IMG/VR virus record: IMGVR_UViG_3300019776_000399
Coordinates: 1-23,283 of that record
Reading direction: 5' to 3' (one strand)
Origin: a virus
DNA length: 23,283 nt
Shown: positions 17,599 to 23,283 of the stretch, in pieces
How positions within the stretch are numbered: position 1 is the stretch's first letter
How the letters are laid out: each line of letters begins with the position of its first letter
Notes under the pieces: generated by a model
Seen by the model: only the letters and a program-made list of their open reading frames with translations
Told to the model about the DNA's origin: nothing
Databases searched by the model: none
Position numbers and translations under genes: made by a program

Positions 17599-17935
17599 CA
17601 ATGGACTCCGATACTTTCGTTTTGTTAGGGGTGTGCTTTTGCGCTGCACGAGCCATCAGAATGGGATTTGCTTGAATCTTCACAAAATCAAATTTCTTGT
17701 ACCAACTGGCCAAATCTCTTAGCCCGTTTGAATTGCCGTATTCCTTGGGCTGCACCATCAATACCTTATGTTGGATGTCGGCGTCTCTGCACGCCTGCTT
17801 GAGCAACGATGTGGCATAGCCAGCCTTCCTGTTCAACGGGTCGGTCCAAATATTCGTAATTTCGTAGACGCCATCAAGCACTTTGCTTGGTACGCACTGC
17901 AGACTGGAAAAATTGTTTGAGTAGCTCTTTTTCAT
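17591..17935 (-). CDS. Small GNAT-family acetyltransferase-like protein
   Basis: A 114-residue protein from ATG 17935, overlapping the terminase stop as ATGA (a further in-frame ATG lies at 17944). GNAT features: beta strand GVYEITNIWTDP, then motif A with the acetyl-CoA pyrophosphate loop R36-K-A-G-Y-A (NRKAGYATSLLKQAC), then VLMVQPKEYGNSNGLRDLAS and the final strand WYKKFDFVKIQANPILMARA. It should acetylate an amino group of an unknown target. Its place between large terminase and portal has no P22 counterpart, so it is an insertion in the packaging module. Confidence 0.75.
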   Translation of the reverse strand: MKKSYSNNFSSLQCVPSKVLDGVYEITNIWTDPLNRKAGYATSLLKQACRDADIQHKVLMVQPKEYGNSNGLRDLASWYKKFDFVKIQANPILMARAAQKHTPNKTKVSESIGV

Positions 17936-19347
17936 GCCATCCATCCGCCACTACCGTGGTACATGTGTACCTCTAGGTTGTGATCGCGTTTCTTTTTAGG
18001 TCCGCGCATGAATTCAAGGCCTCGGCCAAACAAGCTCATGACATCCACTGCATCGTCATACTTTCCAGCCGGGAAGCGCAATAACTGAGACAGCAGTCTG
18101 TCTTTCCACGGCGCGTTCTTAGGCAAGAAAACTTTTCCCATGCTTGCCATAGCCTGTATCGGTCTAGCACGCGTAGGTTTGTCATTAATGCTTGGCAGCC
18201 ATTCAATCCGGCAATACGCTTCACGGCTCTGCATACGACGCATTAAGAAAGGTTCTACAGCCTTTTTTATTACACCGGACTCGCCAAACCAGCACAAAGG
18301 CTCATGCTCTACTATCAATTCACATTGAGCTTCTATCCACGCATCTGATGCCGTCTGTCCATACCACCAGCCTGCTATGTAGATGTTGTTATTTGCATCT
18401 ACACCAGCAATGCCATGCTCGGTATAGTCGCCATCACCATCGGTCACCGCGTAATCCGATGCGCCGTAGTACCTCAGGTTTGGGGGCAGTTCGTCGTACT
18501 CACCGAACCATCCGACCTTGAAGTAGTCGCCGTCATCAGGGATGGGGTTCTGTTGGTACAAGGCATTCCAATCCCGCGCCGGCAGCACGGACCTGATTTG
18601 CTCCAAACGCTCCAGCGGATACCACTCAGGCCAGAGCGGGTTACCTGCACTGTCAATCGCAGGCAGGCTCAAAAGCTCCCACTTGTCCCCGCCGTCCTCT
18701 TGGTCCGCCAGCAGCCTTCCAGAGAGGTCGTCGTCGTGCCAACGCGTGTTGATGACGATCACCGCGCCACCAGGCATCAGGCGCGTGTACGCGGTCGAGG
18801 TGTACCAATCCCACACCCGTTGCCGCGTGATCTCGCTGTCTGCTTCTTGGCGATCCTTGAACGGGTCGTCAATAAGCAGGATGTCCGCGCCACGGCCAGT
18901 AATCGCAGTGCCCACGCCAGCAGCGACGTACATCCCGCCTTCGTCGGTGTGCCACCTGTTCGCCGCCTTGCTGTCCTGAGCAAGCAACGACTTGAACAGG
19001 GCCGAGAACTCGGGGCTACCGACAATGTTCCTAACCTCGCGGCCAAAGTCGCTGGCAAGATCCGAGTTGTACGAGGCAGCAATGATCTGCTTGCCCGGAT
19101 TGCGACCAATGAACCACGCAGGGAACCTACGGGAAGCAAGCTCAGACTTCCCGTGTCGCGGCGGCATCGTGATCATTAGCCGCTTGATCTCACCCCGCTC
19201 TACAGCCTCCAAGGCCTGAGCAATGCGCTCATGGTGCGGCGCAGGCTCATAAGCAGCGTTCGTGTACTCGGCAAACGCTAACAGTGACTCACGCGCTCTA
19301 CGACGCGCTAGCAGCTCAATCGCCGCCTTTTGTTGCGATAGCTGCAA
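17932..19347 (-). CDS. terL: Terminase large subunit (ATPase and nuclease)
   Basis: A 471-residue DNA packaging motor. ATPase: Walker A M61-PPRHGKSE-69, Walker B ILLID-D161, motif III T201-RWH. Nuclease of RNase H fold: D298 in YGASDYAVTD, E356 in WFGESGVIKKA, and D431/D432/D435 in KYDDAVDVMS. The C-terminal nuclease is of the terminase-6C kind. It packages into the procapsid via the portal; family and headful context agree with P22-like permuted genomes. It overlaps the small subunit by 32 bases. Confidence 0.95.
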   Translation of the reverse strand: MQLSQQKAAIELLARRRARESLLAFAEYTNAAYEPAPHHERIAQALEAVERGEIKRLMITMPPRHGKSELASRRFPAWFIGRNPGKQIIAASYNSDLASDFGREVRNIVGSPEFSALFKSLLAQDSKAANRWHTDEGGMYVAAGVGTAITGRGADILLIDDPFKDRQEADSEITRQRVWDWYTSTAYTRLMPGGAVIVINTRWHDDDLSGRLLADQEDGGDKWELLSLPAIDSAGNPLWPEWYPLERLEQIRSVLPARDWNALYQQNPIPDDGDYFKVGWFGEYDELPPNLRYYGASDYAVTDGDGDYTEHGIAGVDANNNIYIAGWWYGQTASDAWIEAQCELIVEHEPLCWFGESGVIKKAVEPFLMRRMQSREAYCRIEWLPSINDKPTRARPIQAMASMGKVFLPKNAPWKDRLLSQLLRFPAGKYDDAVDVMSLFGRGLEFMRGPKKKRDHNLEVHMYHGSGGWMA

Positions 19348-19908: not shown

Positions 19909-20205
19909 TTACCCCAATCTCAATGCGAGTACAGAGCCAGATTCGGTTAGCTCATATTTCGTAGCTTTAATCCCAGCATGTCCCCTCATTGCCGATTTTG
20001 CCGCCAGCACTAGCATTGCTTCGGCGTCCTCACGCGTACACCATGGCTCTCCATCGCGTGTGGGCTCGATATATTGTGATGCTTGCCACTTGGGAGATGC
20101 AATTGCTCCTTGTGGCAAATCCAGGTCAGCCACGGTCGGGTTAGAGGTGAGCTCACTAGGGGCGGGCTCCGCCTGTTGTGCCTGTTGTGCTTGTTCGTCT
20201 GACAT
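19909..20205 (-). CDS. Unknown 98-residue protein
   Basis: The frame is open to 20391 but most of that would overlap the gene before it; ATG 20205 lies one base after that gene's stop, so it is the likely start. The N-terminus is acidic, Gln- and Ala-rich and disordered (MSDEQAQQAQQAEPAPSELT, including a short QA-Q repeat). A folded part follows (WQASQYIEPTRDGEPWCTRE, AAKSAMRGHAGIKATKYELT). Coupled to the 440-residue structural-type gene; role unknown. Confidence 0.68.
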   Translation of the reverse strand: MSDEQAQQAQQAEPAPSELTSNPTVADLDLPQGAIASPKWQASQYIEPTRDGEPWCTREDAEAMLVLAAKSAMRGHAGIKATKYELTESGSVLALRLG

Positions 20206-20206
20206 A

Positions 20207-21529
20207 TTAAAGCTCTCTCGCGGTAATGGCTGGAGTTGCTGATGCGGCAATGATGTTGATTGCTGCGCTTGGCGTAACTGCGGCGGGGCTCTCGAAATAT
20301 CCGCCGTTTGCGGCGATCTTGATATTACCGCCGCCAGCAGTAGCAACAGCGGTGGCACCAATATTGATCCATACGTCAATAGCTGTGTCATTTTTGATAT
20401 AAAAACCGTGCCGCGCAGAGTTTGCCGCCATAAGCTGCTGACTGGTAGTGCTGGCCGTAATGCTGCGATCTGTGCCGGTAGACGGTGCCGCTACGGTATA
20501 TGCCCCAGTCGTATCACCCTTGGGCCGATCCCACGTCGAGCCGTTGTAATAGTGGGGTGCCACCATCAGTAGGCGTATGGTGGCATTGGTCGAGGCGCTA
20601 TCGTAATTGATAGCGTTGGTCATGTTGGCGTTTGAGATGCCGTCTTGACCAGTATTGCCTATCCCCACCATGCGCGACAGAACCGCGCCATATTGATCTA
20701 TTGCGATATTTGCGCGCTGCCCGTCAGTGACAGAGACGCGTGTGGAGTCATACTTGGCCCCGATTTTTATCGGATTACCCGTGTCAGTCGCGGCGGCTGC
20801 TGCATTACCCTGGACCGCAAATGTCGTATTTTGGATTACAGCCGATAGATACGTGGGCGCAAAAGGGACCTGCGAAAAGCGGGATGTCGCCTGCACGCTA
20901 CCGCCGCCGATTGCGACACTTATACGCAGCCGGATATATCTGCCAGGTATGGCAAATACGATGATCGAATTGCCAATGGATGACTGTGGCGTAATTGCTG
21001 CGGCGGTAGCGGCGGTGGTTGAATTTTGAATAATGTACGGGATGGCATGAAAAGTGACGTTGTCGTTGGAGCACTCAAGCAGCATCTGTCCGCTACTCAC
21101 GGTACCGGAGGTGGTGAGCTGGATTGACCCAGATCTGTATCCATCGACATCGATAGCCGCGCTACCAGCAACAGCCGTCAAGATGTTGTTGATCAGATTG
21201 ATCTGACCCGATTGCCCGACAATATCTAAGTCCTCCTGATAGGTGTAGACCGCTCCAGATGAGTCTATCGATATCTCCTGGACATTACCGCTTTTGTCAA
21301 CTCCGCCGATCCTCACAGGATTACCTACAGCGGCCACCCCATCAGCCGTATTGCCCTGCACCTGCTGAGCGCTTGCGCCTGTGCCGCCGCCGCTCGAATT
21401 GACGACATAAACGGCGGGAGCATGACTACCATCGCTTTGGTCGACCAGCTTTTGCAGTACAGGGGGGCCTTGATTTTCACCGGCCTGTATTGCGACGGTG
21501 CCGGATACCTGCTTGAGTCTATCTACCAT
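20207..21529 (-). CDS. Structural-type (fibre or head-appendage) protein of 440 residues, unknown
   Basis: A Ser/Thr/Ala/Gly-rich, beta-rich protein typical of virion proteins. An internal repeat is clear: residues about 56-96 (Q..QGN...GNPVRIGGVDKSG then ISIDSSGAVYT) and 239-285 (VQGN...GNPIKIGAKYD then IAIDQYGAVLS). Between them a segment with IPGRYIRLRISVA looks like a discoidin- or carbohydrate-binding-like strand set. It is the first gene after the tandem terminators, so first of the late operon; P22 has no structural gene before terminase. The ATG has no Shine-Dalgarno site of its own. Confidence 0.75.
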   Translation of the reverse strand: MVDRLKQVSGTVAIQAGENQGPPVLQKLVDQSDGSHAPAVYVVNSSGGGTGASAQQVQGNTADGVAAVGNPVRIGGVDKSGNVQEISIDSSGAVYTYQEDLDIVGQSGQINLINNILTAVAGSAAIDVDGYRSGSIQLTTSGTVSSGQMLLECSNDNVTFHAIPYIIQNSTTAATAAAITPQSSIGNSIIVFAIPGRYIRLRISVAIGGGSVQATSRFSQVPFAPTYLSAVIQNTTFAVQGNAAAAATDTGNPIKIGAKYDSTRVSVTDGQRANIAIDQYGAVLSRMVGIGNTGQDGISNANMTNAINYDSASTNATIRLLMVAPHYYNGSTWDRPKGDTTGAYTVAAPSTGTDRSITASTTSQQLMAANSARHGFYIKNDTAIDVWINIGATAVATAGGGNIKIAANGGYFESPAAVTPSAAINIIAASATPAITAREL

Positions 21530-21539
21530 GATCGGACAT

Positions 21540-21563
21540 AAAAAAAGCCCTCACTTGGAGGGC
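21540..21563 (-). terminator. Second of two tandem terminators before the late operon
   Basis: On the minus strand GCCCTC (21563-21558), loop CAAGT, GAGGGC (21552-21547), then seven T (21546-21540). The T-run ends only about 10 bases before the start of the next gene. Confidence 0.92.
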
Positions 21564-21621
21564 TGTACTAATAAAAACGCGCGCGGAACATTGGGAGCCG
21601 GTCCTAAATAAAGCACAATGC

Positions 21622-21642
21622 AAAAAGCCCTCCGTAGAGGGC
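21622..21642 (-). terminator. First of two tandem terminators before the late operon
   Basis: On the minus strand GCCCTC (21642-21637), loop TACG, GAGGGC (21632-21627), then five T (21626-21622). The six-base stem arms are identical to those of the next terminator. Confidence 0.9.
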
Positions 21643-21698
21643 CTATGAATGAACTTACCGGCGCGCCGCCGCCTCCAAATGGACGGGCGACCTATATG

Positions 21699-22133
21699 CT
21701 AATGCGGCGTCGTGGGGAGGACGATAGCACAGTTTTTTGCTTTGTCAAGCGGCTTTGCAATTTTAGTGATAGCCACCAGTCGCGTCCTTGCGGCATTAAG
21801 GATCATTTGCAGCATGCGCATGTCGACCCCTATTTTTTTGCACTGAGCTGAGATACTAGAGCGATGGACATAGGCCCATGAGAGCGTTGATTGCTGAGTG
21901 ATTGCGAGCTGTCTAATGCTGGCTTGCAGGGACTCTGCATCCTTGCTATCGACGCGATTTAGAGAGGCGTCTGACTCGGCTCTAACGCGCGGCGGTGAGG
22001 GCGTATTGCGAAACATCGGGCAAATGCCTATTGACTCAGGATTTTTGCACCACAGCCCCCAATTGTGGAGCCGCTCATCAATTGCTCTATGCTCTGGTGG
22101 CACGTAGTTAAAGTCGATCCGCTGTCTTGTCAA
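21699..22133 (-). CDS. Putative late antiterminator, Q-like
   Basis: A 144-residue protein starting at TTG 22133 (AGGAG seven bases before). The start region has EHRAIDERLHNWGLWCKN, the RLxxWGxW pattern of Q-type phage antiterminators. The C-terminal part (SLQASIRQLAITQQSTLSWA, then YVHRSSISAQCKKIGVDMRM) looks like a sigma-like helix-turn-helix. It is the last gene before tandem terminators and the late operon, with a strong promoter inside its 3' end, as Q in lambda. Function is inferred from this context and motif; two cysteines (C29, C38) may bind a metal. Confidence 0.65.
   Translation of the reverse strand: MTRQRIDFNYVPPEHRAIDERLHNWGLWCKNPESIGICPMFRNTPSPPRVRAESDASLNRVDSKDAESLQASIRQLAITQQSTLSWAYVHRSSISAQCKKIGVDMRMLQMILNAARTRLVAITKIAKPLDKAKNCAIVLPTTPH
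21721..21748 (-). promoter_or_regulatory. Putative late promoter (PR'-like)
   Basis: On the minus strand the -35 is TTGACA (21748-21743), a perfect consensus, a 16-base spacer follows, then the -10 TATCGT (21726-21721) with TGC just before it, an extended -10. Transcription would start near 21713 and meet the terminators at 21642 and 21563. It lies inside the 3' end of the Q-like gene. Confidence 0.68.
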
Positions 22134-22482
22134 ATTTAAGCTCCTGTATTTTTACTTTGACCATGCCGCCCACTACTGGAGCTACCGAAAAAGTCGTGAC
22201 GAACCGGCTGTCGTCCACCTTGAGCGCATCAGCAATGCCATCTCTAGCTGCTTTAAAAGCAGCCACTAAGCCATCATCGTCACGCTTGCGCTTGTCTGGT
22301 GGATAAAACATCAGTGCGAAAGAGATGGGCCCGTCATACGTCCATTGCACCGCCCCCTGCTCTAACGCCTGGTAATAACAAGCCTCACGATAAAGCTTTG
22401 TCTTGGTGCTCTTTATGCGCCAATGTGGGCGAGCATTTGGGTGTAGCTCGCGCGGCGGCCACGGCATGATTAGCTCTATCAC
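22108..22482 (-). CDS. rusA: RusA-type Holliday junction resolvase
   Basis: A 124-residue endonuclease that cuts four-way junctions and could remove branches before packaging. Typical RusA features are the N-terminal PWPPRELHPNARPHWRIKST and the catalytic set DDDGLVAAFKAARDGI with ALKVDDSRF: three adjacent Asp, a Lys nine residues further, and an Asp pair about 20 residues on, as in E. coli RusA (D70, D72, K76, D91). Length matches E. coli RusA (120). I chose GTG 22482 because it overlaps the upstream stop as GTGA and has GGGG five bases before; a GTG at 22488 is also possible. Confidence 0.88.
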   Translation of the reverse strand: MIELIMPWPPRELHPNARPHWRIKSTKTKLYREACYYQALEQGAVQWTYDGPISFALMFYPPDKRKRDDDGLVAAFKAARDGIADALKVDDSRFVTTFSVAPVVGGMVKVKIQELKFDKTADRL

Positions 22483-22673
22483 ATGCACCCCACATGCGCA
22501 AACATCAGCTCGCGCTCTTCGAGCATTTCGCGGAGCCTGAATTTTTGCTTATCTCTATCAAGATCAGCGTCAGTTCTGTCGTCTGATTCGCAAAAGCTGT
22601 ACTCATATTCGGCATCGCAAACAGCCTCAACCTGCCGCATCACCTGCTCGACCCACTCGTCAGATTTGGTCAT
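22479..22673 (-). CDS. Small acidic protein, unknown
   Basis: A 64-residue protein. The start at ATG 22673 is favoured because GGGAGG is six bases before it; an ATG six bases earlier would be too close to that site. It is acidic and helical (DEWVEQVMRQVEAVCDAEYE), then charged (ESDDRTDADLDRDKQKFRLR). Overlaps the next gene (RusA) by four bases and the gene before by 14. No family recognised. Confidence 0.62.
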   Translation of the reverse strand: MTKSDEWVEQVMRQVEAVCDAEYEYSFCESDDRTDADLDRDKQKFRLREMLEERELMFAHVGCM

Positions 22674-23189: not shown

Positions 23190-23283
23190 TCACAAATCGC
23201 TGTTGCCGTAGCCGTAGCCGTAGCCGTAGCCGTAGCCGTAGCCGTAGCCGTAGCCGTAGCCGTAGCCGTAGCCGTCGCCGTAG
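23190..23283 (-). CDS. Partial gene: C-terminal Gly-Tyr repeat tail
   Basis: The 3' end of a gene whose start lies beyond the window. On the minus strand the last residues read YGDG, then eleven YG dipeptides, then NSDL and TGA (23190-23192). Other frames of the hexamer give Leu-Arg or Thr-Ala repeats, but the YG frame is the one with a proper end just before the ribosome site (AAGGAG) of the next gene. The function of the missing N-terminal part cannot be told; a low-complexity tail could be a flexible or sticky linker. Confidence 0.6.
   Translation of the reverse strand, partial: YGDGYGYGYGYGYGYGYGYGYGYGYGNSDL
23205..23282. repeat. Hexanucleotide tandem repeat (GCCGTA, 13 units)
   Basis: Thirteen units of GCCGTA run to the window end, one with a single change (GCCGTC at 23271-23276). 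The unit length is a multiple of three, so changes in copy number keep the frame. The array may go on past the window. Confidence 0.95.

Follow-up and report, generated by a model that had tools for sequence, protein, structure and literature searches.

In known Q systems, the elements bound by the Q protein are located in the spacer between the -35 and -10 hexamers. In phage lambda, where the Q gene, pR' and tR' stand in this order, the -10-like pause hexamer AACGAT is found at +1 to +6 when counted from position 44587, which we take to be the start of the late transcript. Another such system is that of phage 21 (Q/pR'/tR'; PF06530; structures 6P18, 6P19 and 6JNY), whose Q protein narrows the RNA exit channel (PMC6606751). 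A third example is AlpA/PalpB/tB in Pseudomonas aeruginosa, which controls a host lysis operon and in which alpB carries a -10-like CACGAT at -1 to +5 (PMC9371919). Two RNAs also have to be considered here, namely the put RNA of HK022, which serves early operons, needs no phage protein and, in the case of putL, comes immediately after its promoter (PMC9378689), and StxS, a small RNA of Stx phages that originates between PR' and tR' (review PMC7873438).

The stretch of viral DNA analysed here (the window) is 23,283 nucleotides long (IMG/VR record IMGVR_UViG_3300019776_000399). It holds a Q-like gene, a promoter and two terminators before the late operon, all on the minus strand and all as an earlier note on this DNA had claimed (Table 1). 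With a probability of roughly 0.87, we read this system as a 21Q-type late switch in front of late genes. It would be a mostly ordinary one, a divergent 21Q-type switch in a P22-like phage, in which the variant part is a conserved leader between promoter and terminator that the earlier note overlooked.

Table 1. Features of the late switch and its neighbourhood in the window.
Feature	Position	Strand	Remarks
RusA-like Holliday junction resolvase	22108..22488	-	PHROG_34, 5e-24; directly upstream of the Q-like gene and overlapping it
Q-like gene, 144 aa	21699..22133	-	divergent 21Q-type antiterminator subfamily, as supported by PHROG, fold and profile linkage
pR'-like late promoter, TTGACA-16 nt-TATCGT	21721..21748	-	inside the 3' end of the Q ORF; relatives have equivalents
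Candidate sigma-dependent pause (-10-like) element CACGAC	21709..21714	-	predicted +1 to +6; putative
Conserved late-leader element, ~65-75 nt	21650..21714	-	nucleotide HMM; no Rfam match
Predicted leader hairpin GTCGCC-cg-TCC-ATTT-GGA-GGCGGC	21668..21691	-	RNA fold
Intrinsic terminator 1 (tR'-like), U-rich tail	21615..21644	-	hairpin 21644-21625; start ~+70
Intrinsic terminator 2	21536..21564	-	hairpin 21564-21546; at +148; core stem as in terminator 1
First late gene, 440 aa	20207..21529	-	no family match
Terminase large subunit	17932..19347	-	PHROG_38, 1.7e-109; start of P22-like late operon

The Q-like ORF begins with TTG and is preceded by AGGAG (22145-22141), 7 nt upstream of the start. 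Downstream of the switch lies a late operon for packaging, head and lysis, whose PHROG assignments (portal, scaffold, coat, the Ad3 and Hc3 connectors, a DNA-ejection protein) bear out the earlier description of the phage as P22-like. The terminase genes are preceded by the 440-residue gene and a 160-residue gene (19909-20391), neither of which belongs to a Pfam, PHROG or NCBIfam family. The label 'betaproteobacterial' found no support, as the IMG/VR record gives no host evidence and the leader of the close relatives did not turn up in 399 genomes sampled from the order to which Achromobacter genome G001 belongs. At the far end of the window from the switch, a KilA-N/ORF6C-domain antirepressor-like gene (53-973) adjoins an integrase gene on the opposite strand (970-1959). 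At the end upstream of the switch, 13 copies of the hexamer GCCGTA (23205-23283) reach the contig end.

Searches with the window protein found no antiterminator family in Pfam (matches listed at E<=1) or NCBIfam; the gathering score of PF06530 (Phage_antitermQ) was not reached, with no match to this family at E<=1, no lambda Q or 82 Q model was among the Pfam matches listed at E<=1, and a PDB sequence search returned nothing relevant. In PHROG, it matched PHROG_19609 (unknown function) at 6.5e-5 and PHROG_79, 'anti-termination Q-like', at 0.0032, the latter being matched by a close relative at 9.9e-5. Relatives were sought among the ORFs of phages chosen for the likeness of their terminase, which gave L114 (2e-12), L117 (4e-9) and L002 (0.003). 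When 50,697 phage records were searched by tblastn, the window, L117 and closest-relative proteins had no match, and the L114 protein had weak, partial matches in Vibrio phages and nothing more. A four-sequence profile of this set (A3) found matches in 13 of the 399 genomes of the G001 order, including L171 at 6.8e-7, which is a genuine PF06530 member (1.1e-7, above the cut-off), and L168, a full member of PHROG_19609 (2.8e-57). In a family from which 398 genomes were searched, a wider profile (A5) had matches in 74, many of these matches covering the C-terminal half only.

The AlphaFold2 model of the protein, built from 15 diverse aligned sequences (pLDDT 79.7), has an N-terminal helix packed on a sigma-4-like helix-turn-helix (HTH), which is the fold of phage 21 Q. 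When it was compared with PDB chains, the best six by Z were all phage 21 Q, with Z of 9.8-11.0 over 109-122 residues (6p18_Q, 11.0 over 114 residues; 6jny_B, 10.7; 6p1b, 10.5; 6p1a, 10.4; 6p1c, 10.2; 6p19, 9.8), and a seventh 21Q structure, 6jnx_P, had 8.8; the other matches, to sigma region 4 and other proteins, reached Z of at most 8.9 over fewer residues. As the Foldseek E-values are weak (~0.1), the fold argument is carried by ranking and coverage and not by the E-value. Because the model has the 21Q fold and L171, a homologue found by profile, belongs to PF06530, the protein can be typed, where the earlier note had held it to be not clearly one of the classical Q types; its suggestion of a divergent antiterminator is supported by the same predicted fold and profile linkage, together with the conserved architecture described below, and the type in question is that of 21Q. 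The Cys pair it pointed out is present (C29 and C38), with C29 kept in most close relatives and C38 not, so that the pair is not a conserved metal site. In two other homologues (L173, 1237-1812; L174, 1459-1953), a Cys-rich insert (CxxC...CxxC, zinc-ribbon-like) is found between the N-terminal helix and the HTH. The 21Q-type switch would thus be extended to proteins that databases list as of 'unknown function', namely PHROG_19609 and unlisted relatives.

The promoter has the perfect TTGACA and the extended -10 that the earlier note had placed within the 3'-terminal part of the Q-like gene, the TG lying one base upstream of the -10, and its predicted transcription start is 21714/21713. While it is the best sigma70-like site within 19 kb, it is not beyond chance when taken alone (one found in a local scan against 2.3 expected), so the case rests on the comparison with relatives. 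Defined as a strict promoter near the stop codon (9/12 or better) followed 25-260 nt further on by a strict terminator, the arrangement was found at the gene end in 21 of 84 non-redundant Q homologues and at none of 502 other ORF ends from the same loci (Fisher p ~2e-19); the former count is a lower bound, since many relatives have a weaker -35 and so escape the strict definition, and by hand count 16 of 76 are left once eight loci fetched by a TTGACA-containing pattern are excluded. A late promoter adjoining the Q gene is thus seen in the window and conserved in its relatives. This architecture, the fold and the link to PF06530 argue for the lambda/P22 late-switch logic that the earlier note had assumed.

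Just after the promoter, 5-7 nt from the -10, lies a candidate pause hexamer, placed as are the elements of lambda and alpB, that reads AACGAC in the leader-bearing group and CACGAC in the window, the last base being C where the pause consensus has T. AACGAC is invariant in 15 non-redundant relatives, but it belongs to the pattern by which they were searched. In the -35/-10 spacer, neither a conserved motif among the relatives nor a Q-binding repeat was found.

Between this promoter and the late genes lie the two intrinsic terminators, each a hairpin with a U-run, which top a local scan that gave nine terminator-like sites against 2.3 expected. They span ~+70 to +178 from the predicted start, in agreement with the earlier 70-180 bases; of the identical stems attributed to them, the core GCCCTC/GAGGGC is indeed common to both, while the stems are not identical throughout. 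Terminator 1 lies where the leader-bearing relatives mostly have theirs (~+68 to +84). A second terminator within 500 nt was seen in one of 20 relatives (L345), and as one at +148 is atypical among leader-bearing phages, terminator 2 of the window looks like a local addition or reinforcement. An insertion breaks up the late terminator of L320 and L324, and a further terminator-like sequence is found there ~290-340 nt after the leader start, as would be expected if the switch needs a terminator. The insertion itself (L320, minus strand, ~12035-11700; L324, 1885-2250) is bounded by CCAAAACG...CGTTTTGG, and ARAGORN found no tRNA in it.

The leader came to light as TCCAT-n-GGAGGC, a motif common to the window, L114 and L117 between promoter and terminator, which occurs seven times in 4.5 Mb of loci on both strands, one of these occurrences duplicating the window site. 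When viral contigs were scanned for promoter and motif together, 80 sites were obtained, of which 13 are at the end of Q homologues (E 1e-27 to 1e-51), and these brought out further conserved sequence. A second scan, with a pattern that includes neither promoter nor terminator (AACGACTGAGC-n-GTCGCCC), gave 33 stretches, at least 22 of them with the whole leader and an adjoining Q homologue. In these viral contigs the consensus of the leader, starting near +1, is AACGACTGAGC...GTCGCCC[GA]TCCAT..GGAGGCGGC...CCGGTAAAGCTCA. A nucleotide HMM of 20 relatives, with the window excluded, matches the window at 21705-21654(-) with a score of 31.4 bits and an E-value of 2.5e-9 when the window is searched, or 3.7e-7 when 3.45 Mb are; L114, L318 and L296 are matched more weakly. 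The E-value is somewhat flattering as the motif was partly seeded from the window, though the segments GTCGCCC, GCGGCG and CCGGTAA were not. In an Rfam search the leader had no relevant match.

The transcribed leader is highly conserved to ~+70 and the promoter spacer poorly so. As pause and Q-binding DNA does not extend past the early transcribed region in known systems, this conservation is hard to explain by such DNA alone. Nor does it come from overlap with Q coding sequence, since in five relatives (L345, L352, L354, L358 and L340) promoter and leader follow the Q stop codon at a distance of 320-480 nt. RNA structure in the leader is plausible, with the predicted hairpin paired in 94-96% of cells among 24 leaders; covariation in these leaders is not above that of shuffles, which neither backs nor rules out the fold because the leader sequence hardly varies. 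A covariance model (R1) gave nine matches in 369 genomes, none with a convincing adjoining Q homologue, and this shortage is weak evidence since the outer helix of the model was misplaced. Two other candidate functions were rejected. An attenuator-like switch, with leader GGAGG pairing to terminator CCTCC, was no stronger for cognate than for non-cognate pairs (mean -8.3 vs -8.6 kcal/mol), and for a leader peptide there is an ATG immediately followed by TAG in three relatives and no ATG in others, with loop lengths that shift the frame.

An unrelated conserved leader, ACAAnYTGnTCCGG...ACCGAGTACGCG..GCGGCC, is present in 37 Q loci from the genome search (L168, L183-L186 and L192-L241), where it always follows the Q homologue, on that gene's strand and at a distance of 16-812 nt, and none was found elsewhere in 0.59 Mb on both strands; examples had no match in Rfam. 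The arms CCGGT and ACCG in it seem to be complementary, and in L202, among others, changes in them are paired. That two unrelated leaders are conserved beside one protein family suggests that the leader is of importance to switches of this type. Such leaders raise a question for models of Q action, in that the leader is far better conserved, to well past the pause, than the spacer where Q is thought to bind, and many natural pR'-tR' regions are now available for comparison.

By analogy with described systems, we infer promoter activity, a pause, DNA binding and antitermination for this switch. From its place within the last part of the Q gene, the promoter would fire constitutively, and its transcripts would stop at terminator 1 (and 2) after ~100-180 nt. 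Once made, the Q-like protein would attach to the promoter DNA and load on an RNA polymerase that a sigma-dependent pause keeps near +1 to +16. There it would constrict the RNA exit channel in the manner of 21Q, so that polymerase carrying it could pass both terminators and reach the head, packaging and lysis genes; the loading and read-through step is modelled on 21Q (PMC6606751) and AlpA (PMC9371919). A different role for the HTH protein, as a sigma-4-like activator of the late promoter with terminators that merely block read-through from upstream, would fit its sigma-region-4-like C-terminal half and a weak match to the sigma-70 model TIGR02989. We regard it as quite improbable, as the likeness to 21Q takes in both the N-terminal helix and the HTH (109-122 residues), the -35 of the promoter is perfect as it stands, and in the window and relatives alike the terminators sit after the promoter and before the late genes.

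Within the 21Q-type reading, the leader RNA probably either assists antitermination in cis or is released as a small RNA. That it acts as a stand-alone antiterminator like put, the Q-like protein being secondary or acting elsewhere, seems hardly probable at all: it does start near +1, much as putL sits close behind its promoter (PMC9378689), and has ~70 nt with predicted hairpins, but a 21Q-like gene stands beside it in all leader-bearing phages examined and its fold is without covariation support. A trans-acting small RNA with no part in antitermination, corresponding to the short pR'-tR' transcript of a lysogen, is a possible if rather doubtful role, one that bears on the function of the leader and not on the Q switch itself; the predicted transcript of ~105 nt ends in an intrinsic terminator and StxS has a similar origin (PMC7873438), whereas the conserved stretch takes in the segment at the pause position. 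Somewhat less likely still, and offered tentatively, is that the ~75-nt leader is a functional RNA working in cis with the 21Q-like protein in a two-part, protein-plus-RNA antitermination, where it might keep Q locked on the emerging transcript or suppress pausing and termination as put does. If the leader RNA does work with the 21Q-like protein, the separate leader of Burkholderiales prophages would be a second such solution.

Compared with lambda, the gene order is alike and the CACGAC of the window occupies the place of lambda AACGAT, whereas the protein is of a different type and the promoter lies inside the Q gene and not after it. We know of no comparable conserved leader in the AlpA system. 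The window shares with that system the 21Q-like fold class, the -10-like hexamer and the downstream intrinsic terminator, although the operon controlled by AlpA is a host one and no sequence homology between AlpA and 21Q is reported (PMC9371919). StxS (PMC7873438) resembles the predicted leader RNA in coming from a late promoter-terminator region. The put RNA is alike in being a ~70-nt leader right after a promoter with predicted hairpins; put acts on early operons with no phage protein, as opposed to the leader type of the window, which is always beside a Q-like gene (PMC9378689). With phage 21 the window has in common the predicted fold, a late promoter followed by a terminator and the position before the operon, and it differs in a protein that has no Pfam Q match, in its two terminators and in its conserved leader.
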